DNA from: Verrucomicrobiota bacterium
GTDB taxonomy: Bacteria > Auribacterota > JABMQX01 > JAFGEW01
Reading direction: 5' to 3'
Assembly: GCA_016931415.1 (NCBI GenBank)
Contig: JAFGEW010000017.1
Location: 1-33,539, forward strand
Length of the DNA: 33,539 nt
Below, piece after piece: positions 11,903 through 24,001 of this stretch. Every line of letters starts with the position of its first letter. Within the stretch, counting starts at the first letter, position 1. Below the pieces are notes generated by a model. The model was not told the DNA's origin. It saw only the letters and a list, made by a program, of their open reading frames with translations, and ran no database searches. The position numbers and the translations under genes are program-made.

Positions 11903-11931
11903 TTGCAGGTGGCACCGCGTCGTCGTACAAT
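11903..11931 (+). promoter_or_regulatory. Candidate promoter for the MrfB-like nuclease gene
   Basis: TTGCAG (11903-11908), 17 bp, TACAAT (11926-11931). The -10 is one base from consensus; the -35 matches only TTG. If used, transcription starts near 11938, which excludes starts at TTG 11903 and GTG 11909 and supports GTG 11954. Confidence 0.4.
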
Positions 11932-11953
11932 CGAAGATGAGGAATGGCAGACG

Positions 11954-13012
11954 GTGGATAGCGCGAAAGAACTGAGGAAGCGGTTGGCGGCGCTGAACCG
12001 CGCGCCGCTGCGCCCTGAGGAAGCGGCGGCGACGGCAAAAGAGATCATCAAGGACGAAATCAAGCGGCGGTCGAAGGCATCGGTGCGCCAGGAGGCAGGC
12101 GCGAAGAAGGCGTCCAAGACATCGGCAAAGAAGCCGGCGATCAGGATTGGGGCACGGAAAGCGCCGTCGACGAAGAAGCCGGTTGGCGGACCGCCGTCTG
12201 CTCAGCCGATTATTTACCGGCGCGATGTGCCGGACGCGGTGGTCACGCCGGTGAGGCCGCGCGTGGTGGCGGGCACGCCGGTGGAGTTGGAGAAGGCGGT
12301 GCGGGGCGTGGTGGCGGCACCCGTGCACGGCGGGACAGCGTACGTGACCTCGGCCGGCGTGCTGACGCGCGAGGGCAAGCCGAGTCCGCTCAACGCGGCG
12401 TACCGCGACGCGCTCGAATGCCGCGACACCGGCGTACGCACGTGGATCGCGGACCTGTGCGAGCTCGATGAGGTGCGACCGGCCGATGTGATCTTCTTTG
12501 ACCTCGAAACGACGGGGCTCACGAGCACGCCGCTGTTCCTCATCGGGGCGATGAGCTGGGAGAACGACGGGCTGGCCGTGCGGCAGTTCTTTGCGCGCGA
12601 CTACTCGGAGGAAGCGGCGATAATCGCGCTGTTTCTCGAGTGGGCGGCATCGAAGCGGCTACTCGTATCGTTCAACGGCAAGTCGTTCGACCTGCCGTAC
12701 GTGCGCGTTCGTGCGGCGGCCAACGGCGTGCCGTTCGCGCTCGACCTACCGCATCTCGACCTGCTCCACGTCGCGCGGCGCATCTGGAAGTACTCGCTGC
12801 CCAACTGCCGCCTGCAGACGCTCGAGGTGCACGTCTGCGGCCGGGTGAGGCACGGCGACATCCCGAGCTGGGAGATCCCTGAGGCCTATCATGCCTACGT
12901 GCGCACGTCGAACGCGGTTGAGATGGTCGAGGTGTTGCGCCACAACTTGAGCGATCTCGTGACGCTGGCCGACCTCATGGTGCGTCTCCCCCACCCGCCG
13001 GATCCAGGCTAG
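11954..13012 (+). CDS. YprB/MrfB-like DEDD-type nuclease (RNase H-like fold)
   Basis: 352 aa from GTG 11954. The C-terminal half is the YprB exonuclease domain: IFFDLETTGL (Asp183, Glu185), FLIGAM, VRQFFARDYSEE, LVSFNGKSFDLP (Asp246), LPHLDLLHVARRIW, DIPSWEIPEAYHAY and LRHNLSDLVTLADL (His330, Asp334). All four acidic DEDD positions are present. The N-terminal 110 residues are Lys/Ala-rich and probably disordered. In Bacillus subtilis the homologue MrfB works with helicase MrfA in mitomycin C lesion repair; here a MrfA-like gene lies two genes downstream. I saw no TPR region, unlike longer relatives. Longer starts (TTG 11903, GTG 11909) are in frame; 11954 fits the candidate promoter and a GAGG at 11939-11942. 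Family firm, exact start not. Confidence 0.85.
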   Translation: MDSAKELRKRLAALNRAPLRPEEAAATAKEIIKDEIKRRSKASVRQEAGAKKASKTSAKKPAIRIGARKAPSTKKPVGGPPSAQPIIYRRDVPDAVVTPVRPRVVAGTPVELEKAVRGVVAAPVHGGTAYVTSAGVLTREGKPSPLNAAYRDALECRDTGVRTWIADLCELDEVRPADVIFFDLETTGLTSTPLFLIGAMSWENDGLAVRQFFARDYSEEAAIIALFLEWAASKRLLVSFNGKSFDLPYVRVRAAANGVPFALDLPHLDLLHVARRIWKYSLPNCRLQTLEVHVCGRVRHGDIPSWEIPEAYHAYVRTSNAVEMVEVLRHNLSDLVTLADLMVRLPHPPDPG

Positions 13013-13018
13013 GCGCCG

Positions 13019-13756
13019 ATGGACCACGTCATCGATTTCTTCGTCGAGAACTCCCCCGCGGTCACGACCGCGGTGCTTTGGGGACCGCCAAGCCTGCTGT
13101 GGGCGGGTCTCTGTTTGTGGTTCGCGGGATGGCTCAGACGGCGCTACCAGCTGAAGACCGGCTACACGCGCAAGGTGTTTCACTTCCTGATCTTCTTCAC
13201 CGTCGCGGGCATCCACATGGCGGCTGGCTCGCGGTTCGTGTGTCTTTTCGGCGTGGCGACGTCGCTCGTTGTGTTCTACGCCGTCGCTCGCGGCCGGGGC
13301 CACATCCTCTACGAAGCGATAGCGCGCGAGAAGGACGAGCCGCACCGGACCCATTACATCCTCGTCCCCTACTTCACAACACTCGTCGGAGGCCTCGCGG
13401 GCAACATCCTGTTCGGGCCGGCGGCCGTGGCTGGGTACCTCGTCGCCGGTTGCGGTGATGCTATCGGCGAGCCGGTCGGCACCCGTTTCGGCAAGCACAC
13501 GTATCCCGTGCCCGCGCTGCGTGGCGTGCGCGCCGTTAGGAGCTACGAGGGCTCAGCCGCGGTATTCGTCGCATCAACGCTGGCTGTTCTCACCGCCGTT
13601 ACCCTTCTCCCTGGCCTTGAGCTCCATCTGTGGGCTCTCGCGGCAATCCCGCTTGTGGGACTTGCATGCGCGGTCGCCGAGGCCGTCTCGCCGCACGGCT
13701 GGGACAATGCTACAATGCAGCTCGTTCCAGCATTGCTCGTGTACCTGATCTGGTAG
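13019..13756 (+). CDS. Dolichol/phytol-kinase-like CTP-dependent membrane enzyme
   Basis: 245 aa, with about six hydrophobic segments. It has the CTP_transf_1/polyprenol-kinase signatures: TRKVFHF (50-56), GCGDAIGEPVGTRFGKH (144-160) and RSYEGSAAVF (174-183). Members phosphorylate long-chain alcohols such as dolichol, phytol or diacylglycerol using CTP or another NTP at the membrane. ATG 13019 is 6 bp after the stop of the nuclease gene and 22 bp before the helicase gene, so it is most likely in one operon with two nucleic-acid enzymes, an odd partnership. It may instead serve the lipid-linked glycan block that lies just upstream on the other strand. Kinase versus cytidylyltransferase cannot be separated by eye. 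Confidence 0.8.
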   Translation: MDHVIDFFVENSPAVTTAVLWGPPSLLWAGLCLWFAGWLRRRYQLKTGYTRKVFHFLIFFTVAGIHMAAGSRFVCLFGVATSLVVFYAVARGRGHILYEAIAREKDEPHRTHYILVPYFTTLVGGLAGNILFGPAAVAGYLVAGCGDAIGEPVGTRFGKHTYPVPALRGVRAVRSYEGSAAVFVASTLAVLTAVTLLPGLELHLWALAAIPLVGLACAVAEAVSPHGWDNATMQLVPALLVYLIW

Positions 13757-13778
13757 TGGCCGCAGATCGTGACGACTC

Positions 13779-16556
13779 ATGGACGTTGACGCATTTCTCG
13801 ACGAGGTCCGGTCATCGCCCGAATACGCCGGGCAGATCGCCTACGTGCGCGAGATTGTGGCGCGGCCAGCCGAGTACGGCGAGACACGCCAGCCGCTTCA
13901 CCCGCGCGTCCGCCGCATGCTCGAGCAACGCGGCATCGAGCGGCTTTACAGCCACCAGGCGCAGGCCGTCGACCTCGTGCGCGCGGGCGGAGACGTGCTC
14001 GTCGTCACGGGCACGGCGTCGGGCAAGACGCTGTGCTACGTGCTGCCCGTACTCGAGATGCTGCTCGACACGCCGGACGCACGCGCGCTCATGGTCTTCC
14101 CGACGAAGGCCCTTTGCCAGGACCAGTTCAAGGGGCTTTCCAGTTCGCTCGAGGGTGCCGGGGCCAGCAACGTGTCTGCGGGTGTCTACGACGGCGACAC
14201 GCCGGGCGCGCTGCGGCGCAAGCTGCGAGACAAGGCGTCCATCATCCTGACGAATCCCGAGATGCTCCACGCCGGGCTCATGGCACAGCACGCGCGGTGG
14301 GCGGAGTTCCTGTCGCGGCTGCGCTTTCTCGTGCTCGACGAGCTGCACGTCTACAGCGGCATCTTCGGTTCCAACATGTCGAACGTGCTGCGGCGCTTCC
14401 AGCGGCTGTGCGCGCACTATGGCTCGGCGCCGCAGATCGTCGCGTGCTCGGCCACGATCGGCAATCCGAAGGAGCTCGCAGAGGCGCTGACGGGCCGTGC
14501 ATTCGACGTGGTCGATGCCGACGGCAGCCCGCGCGGCAAGCGGACGTACGTGTTCTGGAACCCACCGCGTATCCGCGCCACGGACTGGCGCTCGCGGCGC
14601 AGCGCGAACGTCGAGGCGCACGAGGTCATGGCCCGCCTCATCGAGCACGGCGTGCCGACGATCACGTTCTCGAAGGCCAAGATGACGGCCGAGATGATTC
14701 ATCGCTACGTGAGCGAGACGCTGCGCGAGGAGGCGCCGCACCTCGCGGGCAAGGTGACGGCCTATCGCGGCGGCTATCTGCCCGAGGAGCGGCGCGAGAT
14801 CGAGCGGCGGCTGTTCGACGGCGAGCTGCTCGGCGTGAGCACGACGCGTGCGCTCGAGCTGGGCATCGATGTCGGCGCGCTCGAGGCGAGCATCATCGTC
14901 GGCTATCCCGGCACGCTCGCGAGCTTCTTCCAGCAGGCGGGCCGCGCGGGCCGGCGAGACGCCGACGCGCTCGTCGTGCTCGTTGGGCTCGACACGACCG
15001 TGAACCAATACGTCATGAGCCATCCGGACTACCTGTTCGGCCGCTTGATCGAGCAGGCGGTGATCGACCCCGACAATCCGTACGTCGTGCTCAATCACCT
15101 GCGCTGCGCGACGCACGAGCTGCCGCTGCTTGACGAGCGGTCGGACGCGTTCGGCCCGCACGCGGGCACCGTGCTCGGCATCCTCGAGGGGAATGGCAAG
15201 GTCAAACGCATCGGCGAGGCATGGTATCACGCCGCATCGGAGACACCGCAGCATGAGGTGTCGCTACGCACGTACTCGGACGCGAACGTCTTGATCGAAG
15301 ACGTTGACACGGGCGGCGTGCTTGGGCAGGTCGACAAGTACGACGCGCCGCCGATTCTGCATCCCGAGGCGATCTACATGCACCGCGGCGAGACGTACCG
15401 CGTCCTCGAGCTCGACCTGGAGCGCAACATCGCACGCGTCAAGCGAGAGGAGGTCGATTACTACACCCAGGCCATCGGCGGCACCGATGTGCACCACGTC
15501 GACCACTGTTTGCGCTCGAAACCGTTCGGCACGGGCACGGCGTCGTGGGGCGAGGTGACCGCCTACTTCCGCAGCGAGTTGTACGAGAAGATCCACTTCT
15601 ACTCGCTCGACGCGATCTCTCAGCACGGGCTGAGCTTGCCGACGTTCGCTCTCGACACGATGGCGCTGTGGCTCGTTCCGCCCGAGCCGCTCATGGAGCA
15701 GGTGCGCGCCGCGGGGCTTGACGTGCACAGCGGACTGCGCGGTATCGGCTACGCAACGCGCATGCTGCTGCCGCTTTTCATGACGTGCGATACGCTCGAC
15801 TTCTCGCACTCGATCGGCGCGGTCAACGCGCCGTGGAACGCGATCTTTGTCTACGAGCGCACTCCGCTCGGACTCGGCTTCACTGAGAAGGCCTACGACC
15901 GGCTTCACAGCATCATGCCCGCCGTGCTCGATACGGTCGTCCACTGCCCGTGCGAGGACGGCTGCCCGTGCTGCGTCGGCAAGCCGTTGCGGCAGTACAC
16001 CACGTGGAACGTCGAGCGCGGCGAGGCATCCGTGCCGTCAAAGCAGTCGTCGCTCCTCATTCTTAAGGGGTTGCTCCACGACGGTTCGAATCTGGACCGG
16101 CCGGACACGTGCGCGTTGACCGACTCAGACGCGGGCGAACGCGTGAAGCTCGAACAGGCGCTCAAGCGTCGGCTCGAGCGGATGCGCGAGCCGACGGTCT
16201 TTCACCCGATCGAGCCGAAGGTGCCGACGGCGTTCCCCAAGCCGGAGGATGAGACGACGCTCAGTCAGACCGACGCGGCTCGTCGGGCCGAACGCCGCCG
16301 CTCGTTCGCCAAGGAGCTGCGCAAGCGGACGGCGAAGCACATTCCGACGGACAAGCTCTCGCCGCATGCGAGCGCCGCTCCTTTGCCGCCGCGCATGAGG
16401 CTGAGAAGCGCCAAGCCGCCGTCGCACTTCCCGGGCGGGCCTGAGGTGCGCGAGGAGAAGGCGGCCGCCGACAGCACACCCGCCGAGCCGATCAAGGCAG
16501 GCGACGCAATCGCCGCCAGGGCACGCCGTCTCAAGCGGCGGAAGCCGGAACACTGA
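13779..16556 (+). CDS. YprA/MrfA-like DEAH-type helicase with DUF1998 and long basic tail (paralogue 1)
   Basis: 925 aa, superfamily 2. Motifs: Q-like YSHQAQAV (57-64), Walker A TGTASGKT (77-84), FPTKALCQD, TNPEML, DELH (187-190), SATIGNP (224-230), VSTTRALELGIDVG and QQAGRAGRR (385-393). The C-terminal DUF1998 region has LPLFMTCDTLD and a Cys cluster HCPCEDGCPCC (Cys723, 725, 729, 731, 732), a probable zinc site. In B. subtilis MrfA is a 3'-5' helicase in mitomycin C repair. After about residue 760 it has a 160-residue Arg/Lys/Pro-rich tail absent from its paralogue at 18247 and beyond the usual ~750 aa. ATG 13779 lacks a clear ribosome site and is 22 bp after the kinase-like gene, suggesting coupling. 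It converges with the phosphoesterase gene, 11 bp away. Confidence 0.9.
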   Translation: MDVDAFLDEVRSSPEYAGQIAYVREIVARPAEYGETRQPLHPRVRRMLEQRGIERLYSHQAQAVDLVRAGGDVLVVTGTASGKTLCYVLPVLEMLLDTPDARALMVFPTKALCQDQFKGLSSSLEGAGASNVSAGVYDGDTPGALRRKLRDKASIILTNPEMLHAGLMAQHARWAEFLSRLRFLVLDELHVYSGIFGSNMSNVLRRFQRLCAHYGSAPQIVACSATIGNPKELAEALTGRAFDVVDADGSPRGKRTYVFWNPPRIRATDWRSRRSANVEAHEVMARLIEHGVPTITFSKAKMTAEMIHRYVSETLREEAPHLAGKVTAYRGGYLPEERREIERRLFDGELLGVSTTRALELGIDVGALEASIIVGYPGTLASFFQQAGRAGRRDADALVVLVGLDTTVNQYVMSHPDYLFGRLIEQAVIDPDNPYVVLNHLRCATHELPLLDERSDAFGPHAGTVLGILEGNGKVKRIGEAWYHAASETPQHEVSLRTYSDANVLIEDVDTGGVLGQVDKYDAPPILHPEAIYMHRGETYRVLELDLERNIARVKREEVDYYTQAIGGTDVHHVDHCLRSKPFGTGTASWGEVTAYFRSELYEKIHFYSLDAISQHGLSLPTFALDTMALWLVPPEPLMEQVRAAGLDVHSGLRGIGYATRMLLPLFMTCDTLDFSHSIGAVNAPWNAIFVYERTPLGLGFTEKAYDRLHSIMPAVLDTVVHCPCEDGCPCCVGKPLRQYTTWNVERGEASVPSKQSSLLILKGLLHDGSNLDRPDTCALTDSDAGERVKLEQALKRRLERMREPTVFHPIEPKVPTAFPKPEDETTLSQTDAARRAERRRSFAKELRKRTAKHIPTDKLSPHASAAPLPPRMRLRSAKPPSHFPGGPEVREEKAAADSTPAEPIKAGDAIAARARRLKRRKPEH

Positions 16557-16567
16557 GATCCCCGGCG

Positions 16568-18043
16568 CTACAATCTGTTGGCGCCTCGCGGGTCGATGAG
16601 GACGTCATCGAGGTTGGCGTCGCAGCCAAGCTCGCGCAGGAAGCGGAGCGCGGGCGCAAGCTCGCCGATCTGTGCAAGACTGTGCGCGTCGCTGCCGAGC
16701 ACGAACTTGACGCCGGCGTCGAGACACATGCGGAAGAAACGGTGCGGCGGCGTGTTCCCTTGGCAGTTGATCTCGGCGGCAACGCCATGTTCGCGCAGCA
16801 GGTCGACTGCGGGCGAAAACAGCCGCTCGGGCGTCTCGACCTTCGCACGGTGGAAGATTCGGAACGGATGCGCGAGCGCCTGAATGCCGGACGCGGCAAA
16901 GCGCTGCAGCATGGAGAGAAACTCGTCCGCCATGCGTCCGGCATCGGGCGCCGGTTGTTTGAGCTCAGGCAGGGTGTGCATGGCGCCCAAGAGGAAACCT
17001 GCGTGCGGCCGGTCGGCCTCACGAAGCAGCGGCCGTCCCCCATTGTCACAGTCAACCTCGAAGCCGATGTGCGCCGCGTCGAGGTGCAAACGCGTCGCGG
17101 TCAAGAACTCGGGGACGCGTGATTCCTCGTCGCGGGCGCTCTCGATACCGTCGCGACACCACGCGCCTCTCGCGCAGTCGCTTCTCGCAAAATAGAGACC
17201 GTGCGTGTGCTCGGCGATCCCGACGCCAGCCAGCCCGAAATCGGTGGCAAGCGCGGGGATGCGGTCCGCCACGATGTCGTCGGCGCAGTAGGCGAACTGC
17301 GTATGGACATGGCAGTCGATCAGGCCGAGGCGTTCGGCCATCTTGAGCTCGTGGCGCGTCACGCGCACGTCCTTCCCGTCGATCTCGACCTCGAGGAACG
17401 GGAACGGCGGCTCGCAGAGCGCGGGCGCTGTAAGGAACTGCATGCCCTGACGCTCGACGAGATCGAGGCCCTCGTGCCAGTGCCCGCCGACGGCGAGCAG
17501 GGCGCCGACCTCGCGCATCGTGGCGATCACCTCATCGGCGTTGACGAGGTTGACCGGACAGGCGGTCGTGCCCGGCGGGAAGAGAGGCACATGCTGGAAC
17601 AGCACCGATGGCCCCGAGTACTTGTGGTGCCCCCCGCGCATGCGCTGCAGATCGCGCGGCGTGCGGCGTGCGTTGTAGTCCGGCTCTTCGGGATCGACGA
17701 AGGCGATATAGCGGGCGCCTTTCACATCGACGATATCGGCCGGCCGCCGGAAGATGCGGTAGAAGGCGTACGGATCGAGGTCGTGGTTGCCGGGGATGGC
17801 AAGGTACGGGCAGTCCAGCGTGTCGACAATGGCGCGGACCTGCTCGGTGCGCTCGACGGCGTCGGCCGCTGCGCCGTCGTCGATGAGGTCGCCGGCCAGA
17901 AGCACGATGTCGGGCTTGATAAGCTGGTTGATACGCCCCACGGCACGCCGGAGCAGCAGCGCGCCGATATCGCCGCGTCGAGGACGATCGGTCTCGCGCG
18001 TGGTCACGTGCGGGTCGGCTATGACGACGAAGCGTTGACGCAT
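16568..18043 (-). CDS. Metallophosphoesterase-PHP fusion protein
   Basis: 491 aa, two metallo-hydrolase domains. Residues 1-235 are a calcineurin-like phosphoesterase: ADPHV (Asp10, His12), AGDLIDD (Asp52), GNHD (85-88), FQHVPL (His151) and GHWH (187-190). Residues 236-491 are a PHP domain: IDCHVHT (Asp243, His245, His247), IAEHTHG (Glu278, His279), FEVD (Glu329), GAMHT (His356), LAHPF (His392) and GSDAH (Asp452, His454). Both metal sites look complete. The C-terminal half resembles histidinol-phosphatase-type PHP proteins. ATG 18043 has GGAGG nearby; the open frame to 18148 has no support. It lies between two helicase paralogues on the opposite strand. It could be a phosphatase, a cyclic-nucleotide esterase or a nuclease; I cannot decide. 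Confidence 0.88.
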   Translation of the reverse strand: MRQRFVVIADPHVTTRETDRPRRGDIGALLLRRAVGRINQLIKPDIVLLAGDLIDDGAAADAVERTEQVRAIVDTLDCPYLAIPGNHDLDPYAFYRIFRRPADIVDVKGARYIAFVDPEEPDYNARRTPRDLQRMRGGHHKYSGPSVLFQHVPLFPPGTTACPVNLVNADEVIATMREVGALLAVGGHWHEGLDLVERQGMQFLTAPALCEPPFPFLEVEIDGKDVRVTRHELKMAERLGLIDCHVHTQFAYCADDIVADRIPALATDFGLAGVGIAEHTHGLYFARSDCARGAWCRDGIESARDEESRVPEFLTATRLHLDAAHIGFEVDCDNGGRPLLREADRPHAGFLLGAMHTLPELKQPAPDAGRMADEFLSMLQRFAASGIQALAHPFRIFHRAKVETPERLFSPAVDLLREHGVAAEINCQGNTPPHRFFRMCLDAGVKFVLGSDAHSLAQIGELAPALRFLRELGCDANLDDVLIDPRGANRL

Positions 18044-18210
18044 AGAATCCTCCGCGGCGTTCTCGCCGGGGCGCGCCGGGCACGCGAGCGTGTGCCGACA
18101 CCATGCAGGCTGCGGCCGCCCAGCCGTCGAACGCAGGGGCTTATACACTGGATCTGCGCATGGTTCAAGGACGGAGGGCGGCCGTCGAGGTTCGACGCCT
18201 TGCCGAACCT

Positions 18211-18240
18211 TTGTACAGGCCCGGCGGTCTGGGGTAGAAT
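18211..18240 (+). promoter_or_regulatory. Candidate promoter giving a near-leaderless helicase mRNA
   Basis: TTGTAC (18211-18216), 18 bp, TAGAAT (18235-18240, 5 of 6 to consensus). The start codon is at 18247, where transcription would be expected to begin. No ribosome-binding site lies between. Confidence 0.4.
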
Positions 18241-18246
18241 GGCCGC

Positions 18247-20583
18247 ATGGAGGCCAGGACTTTTCTCGAACGCGTGCGGCGCCTCAACTTCTACTCGGAC
18301 CAGGTGGCGCACGTCAAACTGCTGCCCGAGCGCCCCGCCGTGTACGGGGCGCTGCGCGATGGACTTGCGCCTGCCGTCGAGGCAGCGTTGCGGCGCCAGG
18401 GCATCGGCCTGCTCTATCGCCACCAGGCCGATGCGATCGAGCACCTGCGCGCCGGGCGCAACGTGGTGGTCGTCACCGGCACGGCGAGCGGCAAGACGCT
18501 CTGCTACCTCGTGCCCGTCGTCGAGCGGCTCATCGCCGAACCATCGGCGACGATGCTGTTCATCTATCCGACCAAGGCGCTTGCGCAAGACCAGCTCCGC
18601 GGGCTCGGCGCGTTCCAGCGCCCCGAGGAGCAGCGCGCCTTCCTCGCCGGAACATACGACGGCGACACGCCGTCCACGCTGCGGCGCAAGCTGCGCGATG
18701 CCGGCAACGTGATTCTCACCAATCCCGACATGCTCCACCAAGGCATCCTGCCGCATCACGCCCGGTGGAACCGCTTCTTCACGCATCTGCGCACCATCGT
18801 CATCGACGAGGTGCACGCCTATCGCGGCGTGTTCGGGTCGCACCTGGCCAACGTGCTGCGTCGGCTGCGACGCATCTGCCGCCACTACGGCTCGACGCCG
18901 CAGTTCGTCTGCTGCTCGGCCACCATCGGCAACCCGCAGGCGCACGCCGAGCGCATCGTGGGCGAGCCGATGACGCTCGTGGCCAACGACGGCTCGCCGC
19001 GCGGGCCGAAACACTTCGTGCTCTGGAACCCGCCGCCGATCGAGACCGCAGCACGGGGGCAGTCAGAAAGCTGGCGCGTCGGCGGCGACCGCCGCAGCCC
19101 GCTCTGGGAAGCCGTGCACCTCATGACCGCGCTCGTAAAAGAGGGCGTGCAGACCATCGCCTTTGTGCGCACGCGGCTCGCCGCCGAGATCCTGTTCAAG
19201 AATGCACGCGACCTGCTGCGGCCCGTGTCGAAAAAGCTTTCCGAATCGATTCATGCCTATCGCGGCGGCTATCTGCCCGAGGAGCGTCGCAAGATCGAGC
19301 ACAAGCTCGTGAGCAAGGAGATCCTCGGCGTGGCGAGCACGAACGCGCTCGAGCTCGGCATCGACATCGGCACGCTGGACGCCTGCATCATGGTCGGCTA
19401 CCCGGGCACGATCGCCAGCCTGTGGCAGCAGACTGGGCGCGCGGGGCGCGGGCTCGAGGACGCGGTGACGTTTCTCGTCGGCCAGAACTCGCCCATCGAC
19501 CAGTACCTCATGACGCATTCCGACTACCTCTTTGCGCAGAACCCGGAGCAGGCGGTTGTCGATCCGGACAACCCGCACATCGTCATCGGCCACATTAAGT
19601 GCGCCATGTTCGAGCTGCCGCTCAGCGACGCGGATGCGGCGCTCTTCGGCCCGTACACCGGCGTCGTGCTCGAGCTGCTCGAGGAAGACGAGGCCGCGCG
19701 CCACATTGACGGGCACTGGTACTGGGCGCGCTCGGAGTACCCGGCCGCCGACGTACACCTGCGCAACATCGCCGGGCCGGTTTACACCATTCAGGATGAA
19801 AGCGAGGGCGAGCGCGTGATCGGCACGATGGATGAGATCAGCGCGCTCTCGCAGCTCCACGATCACGCCGTCTACCTCCACGCAGCCGAGACGTACTTCG
19901 TCAACCAGCTCGACCTCGAACAGAAGATCGTCCGCGTCGAGAAACGCGACCTCGACTACTACACGCAGTCCGTGCAGGTCTCGCAGATCCGAATCGACGA
20001 GGTCGAGGAGGAGACCGCCTGGCGGGGCGCCGCGCTCGGCTTCGGCGATGTGACCGTGACGACGACGATCCCGATGTTCAAGAAGATCCGGTTCCACTCG
20101 CGCGACAGCCTTGGATTCGAGCGGCTCGAGCTGCCGCCGCAGGAGTTGGAAACCGTAGCCATGTGGTTCAGCCCGCCTGAGTCCGTCGTCGAGCTGCTGA
20201 AGTCGCAAGACCTGCTCGTCGGTGAGGCACTCATCGGCATCGCCAACGTGCTCGTCGAGGTGGCGCCCATCTACGTCATGTGCGACACGCGCGACATCGG
20301 CACGGTGGTCGATGCAAGCTGCCTGGGCCGCGACGCGTTGTTCCTGCACGACCGCTATCCGGGCGGAATGGGTTACGCGCGCCGCTGTCTCGACGCGATC
20401 GACGACCTGATGCGAACCATCCTCACCGTCATCCGCGAGTGCGGCTGTGAGGACGGCTGCCCCTCATGCGTCGGCGCCGCCGTGCCGCCGTTTGCCATGA
20501 CCGACCTCGACTCCGCCGTCCGCGGCCGCATCCCCAACAAGGAAGCCGCCCGCGTTCTGCTCGAAGCGCTGCTGGAGCAGTAG
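18247..20583 (+). CDS. YprA/MrfA-like DEAH-type helicase with DUF1998 (paralogue 2)
   Basis: 778 aa, close to the usual length of MrfA. Motifs: LYRHQADAI, Walker A TGTASGKT (77-84), YPTKALAQDQ, TNPDML, DEVH (187-190), SATIGNP (224-230), ASTNALELGIDIG and QQTGRAGRG. DUF1998 follows with APIYVMCDTRD, HDRYPGGMGYARR and the Cys cluster ECGCEDGCPSC (Cys732, 734, 738, 741). The first 230 residues align with the helicase at 13779 with no gap: Walker A, DEXH and SAT fall at identical residue numbers. That shows common descent by duplication. It lacks the long basic tail. It has its own candidate promoter and is divergent from the metallophosphoesterase-PHP gene, so it may be expressed separately from paralogue 1. 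A role in DNA repair is inferred from the family. Confidence 0.9.
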   Translation: MEARTFLERVRRLNFYSDQVAHVKLLPERPAVYGALRDGLAPAVEAALRRQGIGLLYRHQADAIEHLRAGRNVVVVTGTASGKTLCYLVPVVERLIAEPSATMLFIYPTKALAQDQLRGLGAFQRPEEQRAFLAGTYDGDTPSTLRRKLRDAGNVILTNPDMLHQGILPHHARWNRFFTHLRTIVIDEVHAYRGVFGSHLANVLRRLRRICRHYGSTPQFVCCSATIGNPQAHAERIVGEPMTLVANDGSPRGPKHFVLWNPPPIETAARGQSESWRVGGDRRSPLWEAVHLMTALVKEGVQTIAFVRTRLAAEILFKNARDLLRPVSKKLSESIHAYRGGYLPEERRKIEHKLVSKEILGVASTNALELGIDIGTLDACIMVGYPGTIASLWQQTGRAGRGLEDAVTFLVGQNSPIDQYLMTHSDYLFAQNPEQAVVDPDNPHIVIGHIKCAMFELPLSDADAALFGPYTGVVLELLEEDEAARHIDGHWYWARSEYPAADVHLRNIAGPVYTIQDESEGERVIGTMDEISALSQLHDHAVYLHAAETYFVNQLDLEQKIVRVEKRDLDYYTQSVQVSQIRIDEVEEETAWRGAALGFGDVTVTTTIPMFKKIRFHSRDSLGFERLELPPQELETVAMWFSPPESVVELLKSQDLLVGEALIGIANVLVEVAPIYVMCDTRDIGTVVDASCLGRDALFLHDRYPGGMGYARRCLDAIDDLMRTILTVIRECGCEDGCPSCVGAAVPPFAMTDLDSAVRGRIPNKEAARVLLEALLEQ

Positions 20584-20641: not shown

Positions 20642-20818
20642 ATGTAGAGGGTGTGCAGCGCTCGGGGGCTCTGCGCGCCGGCAATGTTCCCTGCCAGTGT
20701 GTGTGTGCGGACTCGGAGGCAAAGTCATGCGTCGGGTGCACACCAGGACCGGGGTGTTCGGTAGCCTCGGGCCGAGACCGGCTGCACAATGCGCAGGGAG
20801 TGGAGGAAAGGATTGGTG
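20642..20818 (+). other. Long structured 5' leader of the 20819 gene
   Basis: About 170 nt between the predicted transcription start and ATG 20819. Nested stems are visible: GAGGC 20716-20720 with GCCTC 20764-20768, enclosing ACACC 20740-20744 with GGTGT 20753-20757. A GGCAAAG string sits at the foot of the outer stem and GGTAGCC at its other side. The parts recall, but do not match, the second half of a c-di-GMP-I riboswitch; the first GCAAACC half is not found. Ribosome site GGAGG at about 20802-20806. Confidence 0.35.
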
Positions 20819-23800
20819 ATGGAGCGGATTGCTGTGCTGCGCTGTGGAATCGTGTCTTTCATCGCATCGTGCGTCTGTGCCGGGATGATCTTCGGCGCCC
20901 CAAGCGCACATGCGACCGACCCGACTGACCTCGATGTGCCACTCATCGAGCGGACACCGCGCTATGACTACGACGCGACGAAGAATGACCCCGCGCCGGG
21001 CGACACGGTCACGTTTCACGGCCACGTCAAGCTCTGGGGTACCTCGGGGCTATCGTCCGTCGCCTACCGGTGGGAACTCGACGGGGAGGAGCTGAGCAGC
21101 GGCACGATGACCAACTTGGCTGCCGGCGAGGAGCGCGTGCTGACCCAGACCTGGACGTGGCAGAGTGACCGGCACACGGTCAAGCTGATCGTCGATCCAG
21201 CCAATGCGATCGCCGAACGCAGCGAGACGAACAACTCGGTCGAGGACTACACCGACGGGATCATTGTCGGGTTCTGGGTCGAGCAATCGGTTTACGACTA
21301 CTTCCACCAGTATCAGAACGAGCTGGGTGACGGGGCCAACTCGTGGCAGGACTGGGCGCAGCGCCAGATCAGGAAATGGAACTCGATGTGCCCGGTGGCG
21401 GTCTGGGACATCTCGCCCGACGGCGTACTCGACCGGTTCCGGCTCGACAAGATCGTCGTCGTGGCTGACGGTGCTCTGCCGCTCAATGGCGGCCTGGCGA
21501 CCAACCACCCCGACCTGTCGGACAGGACCGTAGACCTCATGTGGGGGTTCCCGGCGACGCTGCTTGGCGGGAGCATGTACTCGAACCACACGAGCACGAG
21601 CGAGACGAACGCTTTCTACATCGAGCAGTCGCTGCTGCACGAGCTCGGCCACGCCCGCTACCTGATCGACAGCTACGGGTTCGATACTCACAACACGTCG
21701 AGCCATCACTCGGTGCAGATCTACGAGGGGAGCACGTACGTTGCGGGGAGCAGCTACATGCCGTTCCTGGCGTGGGGAGAAGTGCTCTACTACAACAAGA
21801 GCGGCGGCGTGATGAGCGGCCCGTATGGGTTCAACTGGTCGCCGTACGAGGCTGGGGCGCTCAACCTGATTGCCGGGCTGCGCGCCTCGGAGGGCAACTA
21901 CAACTCCCCGGGCAACATCGGCGTGTTCCTTCAGGACCTGCCTCAGAACAACCACCTGCGCATCATCGACCACCACCTGCGGCCGCGCGCCGGCGCCAAC
22001 GTGCGCATCTACAACGCCGTGAGCGGCCCGGGCTGGTACGGCAAGACGTTCGACAACACCTACGACCAGGAGTATACGGCTGACGCGAACGGCTACATCA
22101 ACCTGCCGCGCAACCCGTTCAACCCTGGCGGCACGATCACGCACACCTACGGGCTGGCCAATGGGGTGATGATCCTGCGCATCTCGCACAACGGTCAGAT
22201 CTGGTACCGGTTCGTCGAGGTGAGCGACTTCAACATCGAGTACTGGAAGGGCAACACGCAGCACGCGTACTACACGGAGACCTTCGAGGGCATCGAGGGT
22301 CCTGACCTCGACGGCGACGGCCTGCCCGACGAGTGGGAGATGATCTGGTTTGGGGACATGACGCACGGCCCTGCCGGCGACGATGATACGGGCGGCGCCG
22401 ACGGGCTGACCAACCTCGAGGAATACCAGCATGGCACCGACCCGGCCAATCCTGACACGGACGGCGACGGCCTGCTCGACGGCACCGAAGTGCATACGCA
22501 CGGCACGGATCCCCTCGACCCCGACAGCGACGGCGACACGATGTTCGACGGCTTCGAGGTCGACAACGGGTTCGCGCCGCTGGACTTCACCGACGGCTCG
22601 CGTGACCGCGACGGCGACCGGCTACTCAACGCCGAAGAGTCTGCCTGGGGATCCGACCCGCTCGATGCAGCGTCGCCGAGCGTGCTTTGGGTCGATGACG
22701 ATAACGCGGGCGATCCTGCTCAGGACGGCTCGTTCGCCCATCCTTATTCGAGCGTTCAGACGGCGATCACGGCTGCCGTGCCACCGGCGATTGTCCGAGT
22801 ACTGCCGGGCTATTACACGGAGCAGGTCTCTCCCCTGAGCAGTGTGTGGCTCATCGGCTCAGGAGCCGAGTCGACCACCATCGACTCCCAAGACACGCGT
22901 GAGACGATTCTGGCCGACGGTGTGAGCAACGTTGTGGTCGCGGACTTCGCCCTTACCTCGGGCGGCGCGGGCTATACGGCGCTTCGTTCCATTTTCTCGA
23001 CGATGACCGTGCGCAACTGCGTCGCCACCGGGAGCGCCAGCGGCTTCGGCGTCGGCCAGACAGGTGCCCTGACTGTCGCCAGCTGCGTCGCCTATGACAA
23101 CGCACTCCGCGGCATTTGGCAGAGCGGCGAGGCGAGTCTGACGGTTGTCAACACCACGATTGTCAACAACGGGCAGAATGGCCTTGTGCGCTGGGGTACG
23201 GGCACTGTCACGATCGTCGGCACGGTCATCTCGGGCAGCGACGACGACGTGAGCGGATCGAGCATCGCGGCGGCCTACTGCAACATCGGCGACGGCACGT
23301 TTGCCGGCTCGAATGGCAACATCTCGGCTGATCCACTGTTCGTCGATCCGGTCGCGGGCGACTTCCGCCTGCTGCCCGGCTCCCCATGCATCGACGCCGG
23401 CACGAGCACCTTCGACGGGGCCCCCGCTGGCCCCGGCAAACCGGCGGGCATCGTGCCCACGACGGATCTTGAGCGCTTCGCGCGATGGGATGATCCCGCC
23501 ACGATCAACACGGGCGGCGGCAACCATACCTATTACGACATAGGCGCCTACGAATACTGCCCGGACACGGATGCCGACGGCCTGCCCGACTCGACGGAAA
23601 CGGACACGGGCACGTACGGCGGCTACGACAACGTGGGCACAGACCCGAACAATCCCGACACGGACGGCGACACGTCCATCGATGGCGACGAGATCGCCGC
23701 CGGCACGGATCCGTTTGACCCAGCCTCGCTTTTCAAGGTCACGGACACGACGCTCGACGAGCCGGCGCGGACTGCGTGCGAGATTACGTGGACCGTCGAG

Positions 23801-24001
23801 CCGCTCAGGAAGTACAAGCTACTCTGGTCCCCTTCATTGAGTCCGCCGTCATGGGACCAGGTGAGTGGCACGGCGCTCAACGACCTCGTCGACAACGGCG
23901 ACGGTACGTGGACGTGGACCGATACGGGTGCCGATCCCGAGATGGGCGGCGTCACCCCCGGCATTACGATGGAGCGCTTCTACAGAGTGCTCGTCGAATA
24001 G
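20819..24001 (+). CDS. Large exported protein: CARDB, HExxH peptidase-like, TSP3 repeats, beta-helix
   Basis: 1060 aa. Signal peptide at residues 1-32 (ends near SAHA-TD). Order of domains: CARDB-like Ig module (about 35-130, with ERSETNNS); a zinc-peptidase-like region with [10 protein letters not shown] (His274, Glu275, His278); calcium-binding thrombospondin-type-3 repeats (about 490-615, [31 protein letters not shown]); a right-handed beta-helix (about 620-860) starting [10 protein letters not shown] and ending in the GSPCIDAG turn; a second TSP3 block (about 915-970); and a C-terminal domain ending [12 protein letters not shown] 20819 follows GGAGG and AAGGA; the in-frame ATG 20789 would add ten charged residues before the signal. 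Probably cell-surface or secreted. Third zinc ligand not identified, so peptidase activity is only likely. Confidence 0.82.

Follow-up and report, generated by a model that had tools for sequence, protein, structure and literature searches.

Results

A metallophosphoesterase–PHP fusion lies between two helicase genes

The window, by which we mean the whole stretch of 33,539 nt that was analyzed, encodes on its minus strand (16568..18043) a 491-aa protein in which a calcineurin-like metallophosphoesterase (MPE; residues ~1–235, 17339..18043) is joined in one polypeptide to a C-terminal PHP domain (residues ~240–491, 16571..17326). Its ORF runs from an ATG at 18043, preceded by a Shine-Dalgarno-like GGAGG, to a stop at 16568, and the mechanical ORF begins farther upstream, at a GTG at 18148. 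The flanking genes, both on the plus strand, encode MrfA-type helicases of 925 aa (helicase 1, 13779..16556) and 778 aa (helicase 2, 18247..20583) that are 43% identical to each other and carry the same four domains above cut-off: DEAD, Helicase_C, WHD_HRQ1, and MZB (the MrfA Zn-binding domain). An MrfB-like DEDD exonuclease gene (RNase_H_2, PF13482, 118 bits; 11903..13012, plus strand) stands two genes upstream of helicase 1. The fusion gene is antisense to both helicases, separated by 11 bp from helicase 1 (tail to tail) and by 203 bp from helicase 2 (head to head). The original prediction of a metallophosphoesterase fused to a PHP domain and sited between helicase paralogues is confirmed by the ORF, by Pfam and NCBIfam matches, and by the helicase domains; it mentioned neither the gene's orientation nor the exonuclease. 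A doubled MrfA set with an MrfB-like exonuclease in one locus (11903–20583) is itself unusual, and the region downstream of helicase 2 (20789–24001) encodes a large protein in which TSP3, CARDB, and beta-helix domains are recognized.

Both domains carry full sets of motif residues

The N-terminal domain matches Metallophos (PF00149) over residues 4–191 at 46.2 bits (cut-off 21.5), with D10, H12, D52, N86, H151, H188, and H190 as its metal ligands. An AlphaFold2 model built from an alignment of 11 rows (the window protein with relatives from a genome-contig scan) has a mean pLDDT of 92.0 and a pTM of 0.91 for the two domains together, and thus defines each domain well and probably also the way they pack. 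Three structures tie as the closest folds to the MPE (VIA-align): 2nxf (Z 25.6), GpdQ (25.3), and Rv0805 (24.8), while Mre11 entries reach Z 19.8 or less. Among PDB sequences the MPE half matches GpdQ (E 2e-4) and 2nxf (E 0.013). The motifs DxH, GD, GNHD, H, and GHxH, with the fold, place it in class III (the CpdA/GpdQ/Rv0805 type). It scores 20 bits on the CpdA equivalog PRK11148 vs. a curated cut-off of 225 bits.

The PHP domain is HisJ-like by sequence, its nearest sequence families being of HisJ type. NCBIfam histidinol-phosphatase models cover residues 241–474 at 40.1 bits, and PRK07328 gives 40 bits on the window protein and matches 7/7 members of the family alignment; PF02811 (PHP) has no score on the window copy and scores on 6/7 of those members. 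The only PDB sequence match of this half is HisJ (2yxo, E 0.01). Its fold matches are PolX-PHP (Z 23.7), HisJ 2yxo (22.3), and YcdX (21.8; VIA-align). The motif residues H245, H247, E278, H279, E329, H356, H392, D452, and H454 are all present, with ligand roles assigned by motif. The window copy deviates at Q428, where 49/50 relatives have H, and at A465, where 47/50 do. Given these two near-invariant positions, its PHP site may be altered and the window protein may be a diverged family member.

Full metal-ligand sets had been claimed for both domains, and every motif residue is indeed found and is conserved across relatives; that conservation and the confident model back the reading of the protein as a putative two-active-site hydrolase. 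MPE and PHP domains are both acidic across 51 fusions (median pI 5.8 for each; net charge −7 and −9, respectively). No signal peptide was evident at the N terminus on inspection by eye, and the protein is probably cytoplasmic.

The fusion recurs in PVC bacteria with conserved motifs

We found 50 other full-length MPE–PHP fusions, in genomes and metagenome-assembled genomes (MAGs) of Verrucomicrobiota, Lentisphaeria, and Planctomycetota, with 26–45% identity to the window protein. In the genome-contig scan, relatives that were full-length or nearly so came from Phycisphaerae, Planctomycetota, Lentisphaeria, and one "PVC group" MAG. Frequencies differ greatly among sampled phyla. The full fusion occurs in 1/44 genomes of the window's own phylum (the window's own genome), in 3/392 genomes of Planctomycetota (the phylum of G044), and in 44/387 sampled genomes of the GTDB phylum of a Lentisphaeria MAG (G046), which we take to be Verrucomicrobiota; two of these 44 have a decayed MPE.

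Conservation was counted over the 50 fusions, with duplicates removed, aligned with the window protein. In 47/50, each of the seven MPE ligands is unchanged, the exceptions being one protein with D for N86 (L201) and two in which the site is lost (L163 and L164). For the PHP, 48/50 match at all nine motif positions; one protein has E278D (L161) and another ends at a contig edge (L034). Retention of the MPE ligands over such deep divergence suggests that MPE catalysis is under selection. The two proteins that lost the MPE site (L163/L203 and L164/L204) are full-length fusions with intact PHP domains. At L034:9953–11946 a standalone MPE lies just upstream of the fusion that ends at the contig edge, forming tandem copies.

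A viral or plasmid origin was considered and rejected: no phage record matched, viral scans gave no full-length match, and the two plasmid records that matched the fusion did so in the PHP part alone. Our literature search, which stopped short of publications naming both "PHP domain" and "calcineurin-like," returned no paper describing an MPE–PHP fusion; the main text of PMC12458937 contains neither "PHP" nor "phosphoesterase," and we also drew on PMC6616362 and PMC3407115. The fusion defines a conserved, apparently unnamed family of bifunctional phosphoesterases found mainly in Verrucomicrobia-type (PVC) bacteria.

One MPE family has several phosphatase-type partners

Swapping of partners is directly observed in this MPE family, whose members occur alone, with a HisJ-like PHP, with a GmhB-like HAD, or with a CehA/McbA-like PHP. 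Family scans confirmed the HAD partner in 5/7 MPE–HAD rows, four by NCBIfam (L002, L036, L039, and L220 (=L121)) and one by Pfam alone (L222 (=L123)); of the remaining two, L122 was assigned by eye and L125 was left out. In G131 the same MPE family is joined to a CehA/McbA-type PHP (L223/L124) at 57 bits, under the cut-off of 80. Each of these partners, which differ in fold, comes from a family that includes phosphatases; phosphomonoesterases are known in the HisJ and GmhB families.

A quick LG+G4 tree search without bootstraps recovered a branch (SH-aLRT 86) with all PHP-fused MPEs on one side and the HAD-fused, CehA-fused, and outgroup MPEs on the other. Eight standalone MPEs fall within the PHP-fused side, a pattern consistent with a PHP that was joined once and later lost several times. 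Loss is also seen from the MPE end: 13/13 relatives that consist of an N-terminal part plus PHP (N+PHP) retain an intact PHP but lack the MPE ligands, and the N-terminal parts of four of them (L225, L229, L230, and L226) resemble shrunken MPE remnants by eye. For some standalone MPEs, the matches listed at E ≤ 1e-30 include no PHP partner in the same genome. Together with the MPE losses in N+PHP proteins, L163, and L164, the standalone MPEs suggest that the two activities are not always required together. Three genomes (G532, G796, and G504) combine a decayed or lost MPE with a separate intact one; constant pairing of this kind, as compensation would require, does not hold throughout the matches listed at E ≤ 1e-30.

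Neighboring genes do not name a pathway

To survey neighbors we took 127 proteins of at least 120 aa within two genes on either side of the fusion at 41 loci, leaving out five other loci where a simple gene caller missed the fusion. No neighbor family is conserved across the 41 loci, and the neighbors name no pathway. The commonest Pfam families, S41 protease and methyltransferase-type, account for 6/127 each. Individual loci include a Macro-domain/glycosyltransferase/methyltransferase operon (L179) and a ketopantoate reductase neighbor (L181). An S41 C-terminal processing protease lies directly 3′ of the fusion at L178, L180, L181, L183, L208, and L212. Among relatives with other architectures, a DapA-family gene adjoins the N+PHP gene of L225, and by eye the intact-PHP gene of L225, L229, and L233 lies directly 3′ of a dapA-like gene that is itself preceded by a dapF-like gene. 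At L039 the MPE–HAD gene is preceded by genes for a sugar-type ABC transporter and a Gfo/Idh/MocA protein, a setting in keeping with a small-molecule substrate.

The helicase neighborhood is not conserved

The gene's position had been taken to hint at a role with nucleic acids. We compared the two MrfA proteins of the window, its MrfB-like protein, and the protein encoded at 13019–13756 with 4,874 ORFs at 67 loci, of which one is the window and 66 are related loci. None of the 66 holds an MrfA or MrfB homologue; beyond the window itself, one weak SF2 helicase was found (L215, 30–32 bits). Among the first seven fusion genomes a true MrfA-like helicase occurs in G048 alone, and the 14 kb around its fusion (L033) contain none. 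MZB domains are found in 12/47 other fusion genomes (G507 and G576 left out), and in the 47 genomes none is within 26 kb of the fusion, though many MAG contigs are short and in individual cases a helicase may lie next to the fusion beyond the contig end; the nearest, in G449, is on the same contig and scores 25 bits. In a same-class relative (G001) the orthologue of helicase 2 (56%) lies on a contig of 4 kb that lacks the fusion and has a different ORF upstream of the helicase. We therefore reject a link between the fusion and the helicases or repair, on the lack of conserved adjacency, the rarity of MZB, the antisense orientation, and the G001 orthologue. With the acidity of both domains, these results tell against the nucleic-acid hint of the original prediction, which had asked whether relatives also sit beside MrfA-type helicases and had named a constant setting among unrelated metabolic genes as evidence against it; the assorted neighbors, mostly metabolic or envelope genes, come close to that second case. 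The placement of the fusion between the helicases is a chance feature of this genome, both helicases and the MrfB-like exonuclease are judged bystanders, and proximity to repair helicases proved a misleading clue to function here.

Discussion

A candidate two-step phosphoesterase

Conserved sites, acidic domains, a fold of diesterase or diphosphatase type, and repeated phosphatase-type partners point to a two-step small-molecule phosphoesterase. With moderate confidence, we propose that the fusion is a two-active-site hydrolase of small phosphorylated metabolites, probably cytoplasmic, in which the MPE acts first and the PHP second. The class III-type MPE, from the GpdQ/ADPRibase-Mn/Rv0805 neighborhood, would cut a phosphodiester or diphosphate bond and leave a phosphomonoester, and the HisJ-like PHP would then take the phosphate off that product; in the predicted structure the PHP would be held against the MPE in a fixed arrangement. 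That the same MPE family is also joined to a GmhB-like HAD and a CehA-like PHP suggests that the MPE yields a phosphomonoester and its partner dephosphorylates it. We infer that both sites are active and work in sequence on a small substrate, which may be a nucleotide-type molecule. The PHP fold, equally near or slightly nearer to the PolX nuclease than to HisJ, counts against this two-step reading, as do the deviations of the window copy at Q428 and A465 and the lack of a conserved neighbor that would name a pathway.

A broader proposal is tentative. The separate wiring of one MPE family to a HisJ-like PHP, a GmhB-like HAD, and a CehA-like PHP could reflect a route, so far unrecognised and common in Verrucomicrobiota, by which a bacterial metabolite with a phosphodiester or diphosphate bond is broken down in two steps. 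In such a route, a phosphomonoester that is toxic or valuable would be dephosphorylated by the same polypeptide that releases it. The differing folds of these phosphatase-type partners give a testable clue to the chemistry of the family.

Alternative explanations

What argues most against strict coupling is that the MPE has repeatedly been lost from proteins that keep the PHP. One could accordingly suppose that the PHP is the enzyme that matters and that the MPE plays an accessory or regulatory part as a phosphodiesterase, for example on a cyclic nucleotide, with sites that do not work sequentially. The PHP is intact in all readable relatives, including the N+PHP proteins that lost the MPE and the two fusions in which it decayed, and the MPE lies near Rv0805 as well as GpdQ. 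However, the near-universal retention of MPE ligands among deeply diverged fusions, the persistence of intact standalone MPEs, and the separate joining of this MPE family to other phosphatase-type domains all tell against this, and we consider the accessory role somewhat unlikely.

With an MrfA paralogue on each side and an MrfB-like gene nearby, the fusion invites a further explanation, that an SbcD/PdeM-like MPE and a PolX-like PHP exonuclease form a nuclease for nucleic-acid end processing or repair, working with the flanking helicases. Besides the closeness of the PHP fold to PolX-PHP, its sequence support consists of a weak match to PdeM TIGR04123 (20.6 bits vs. a curated cut-off of 150 bits) and of sbcd models that match 2/7 family members weakly, at about 1e-4, with the window protein unlisted at E ≤ 0.01. 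Against it stand the 66 related loci free of MrfA and MrfB homologues, the scarce and always distant MZB domains, the antisense orientation, the acidity of both domains, and an MPE fold clearly farther from Mre11 than from GpdQ and 2nxf (Z about 25), and we regard such a nuclease as improbable.

A role for the PHP as the histidinol-phosphate phosphatase of the cell, with the fused MPE doing an unrelated job, is very improbable and was rejected as an identification: HisJ-type models are its nearest sequence families, but it scores far under their cut-offs (TIGR01856, 16.1 bits vs. a curated cut-off of 90.2 bits), the window copy lacks the near-invariant H428, and separate HisJ-family proteins above cut-off exist in the window's genome (L018, G000:C40:27411, 134–136 bits) and in G050 and G526. 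The L018 protein has about 195 additional N-terminal residues.

Comparison with known systems

MrfAB is a mitomycin repair system (PMC11194089). Genes of MrfA and MrfB type flank the fusion in the window, but its relatives show no conserved linkage to either. PolX-type PHP exonucleases differ from the fusion in their partner, a Pol beta-like polymerase core in place of the MPE.

HisJ-type histidinol-phosphate phosphatases (2yxo, 3dcp, and 4gyf) share the PHP fold over 225 residues at 23% identity, and by alignment the fusion has their nine-residue motif, from which metal binding is predicted. They differ in that the fusion PHP falls below the family cut-offs, is joined to an MPE, and occurs in a genome that encodes a separate HisJ.

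The ADP-ribose/CDP-alcohol diphosphatase ADPRibase-Mn (2nxf) gives the best fold match, the C-terminal part of the fusion MPE can be aligned to it by sequence, and 2nxf has no second domain. For the ADPRibase-Mn-like family, PMC4334965 describes a first metal motif D[V/I]Q and, in the s2s3 loop, a catalytic Arg that is invariant (Arg43 in human). The fusion MPE has DxH (D10-x-H12) in place of that motif in 48/48 intact fusions including the window protein, and we therefore reject its membership in that family. In a loop of variable length, the fusion MPE has an Arg (R22) that is shared at its alignment column by 39/48 fusions and may correspond to the ADPRibase-Mn Arg. The fusion MPE may nonetheless work like ADPRibase-Mn.

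GpdQ of Enterobacter aerogenes (2zo9, 3d03, and 2dxl), a class III enzyme named as a glycerophosphodiesterase in PDB titles, shares with the fusion MPE both the fold (Z 25.1–25.3 over ~224 residues, 21–22% identity) and the motif set DxH...GD...GNHD...H...GHxH. It has no PHP domain, and its PDB chain is only ~274 aa, against ~235 aa for the fusion MPE. The MPE–HAD proteins carry an MPE of the same family by the tree and, like the fusion, a C-terminal phosphatase-type domain; they differ in that this partner is a GmhB-like HAD, scoring under GmhB cut-offs, and not a PHP.
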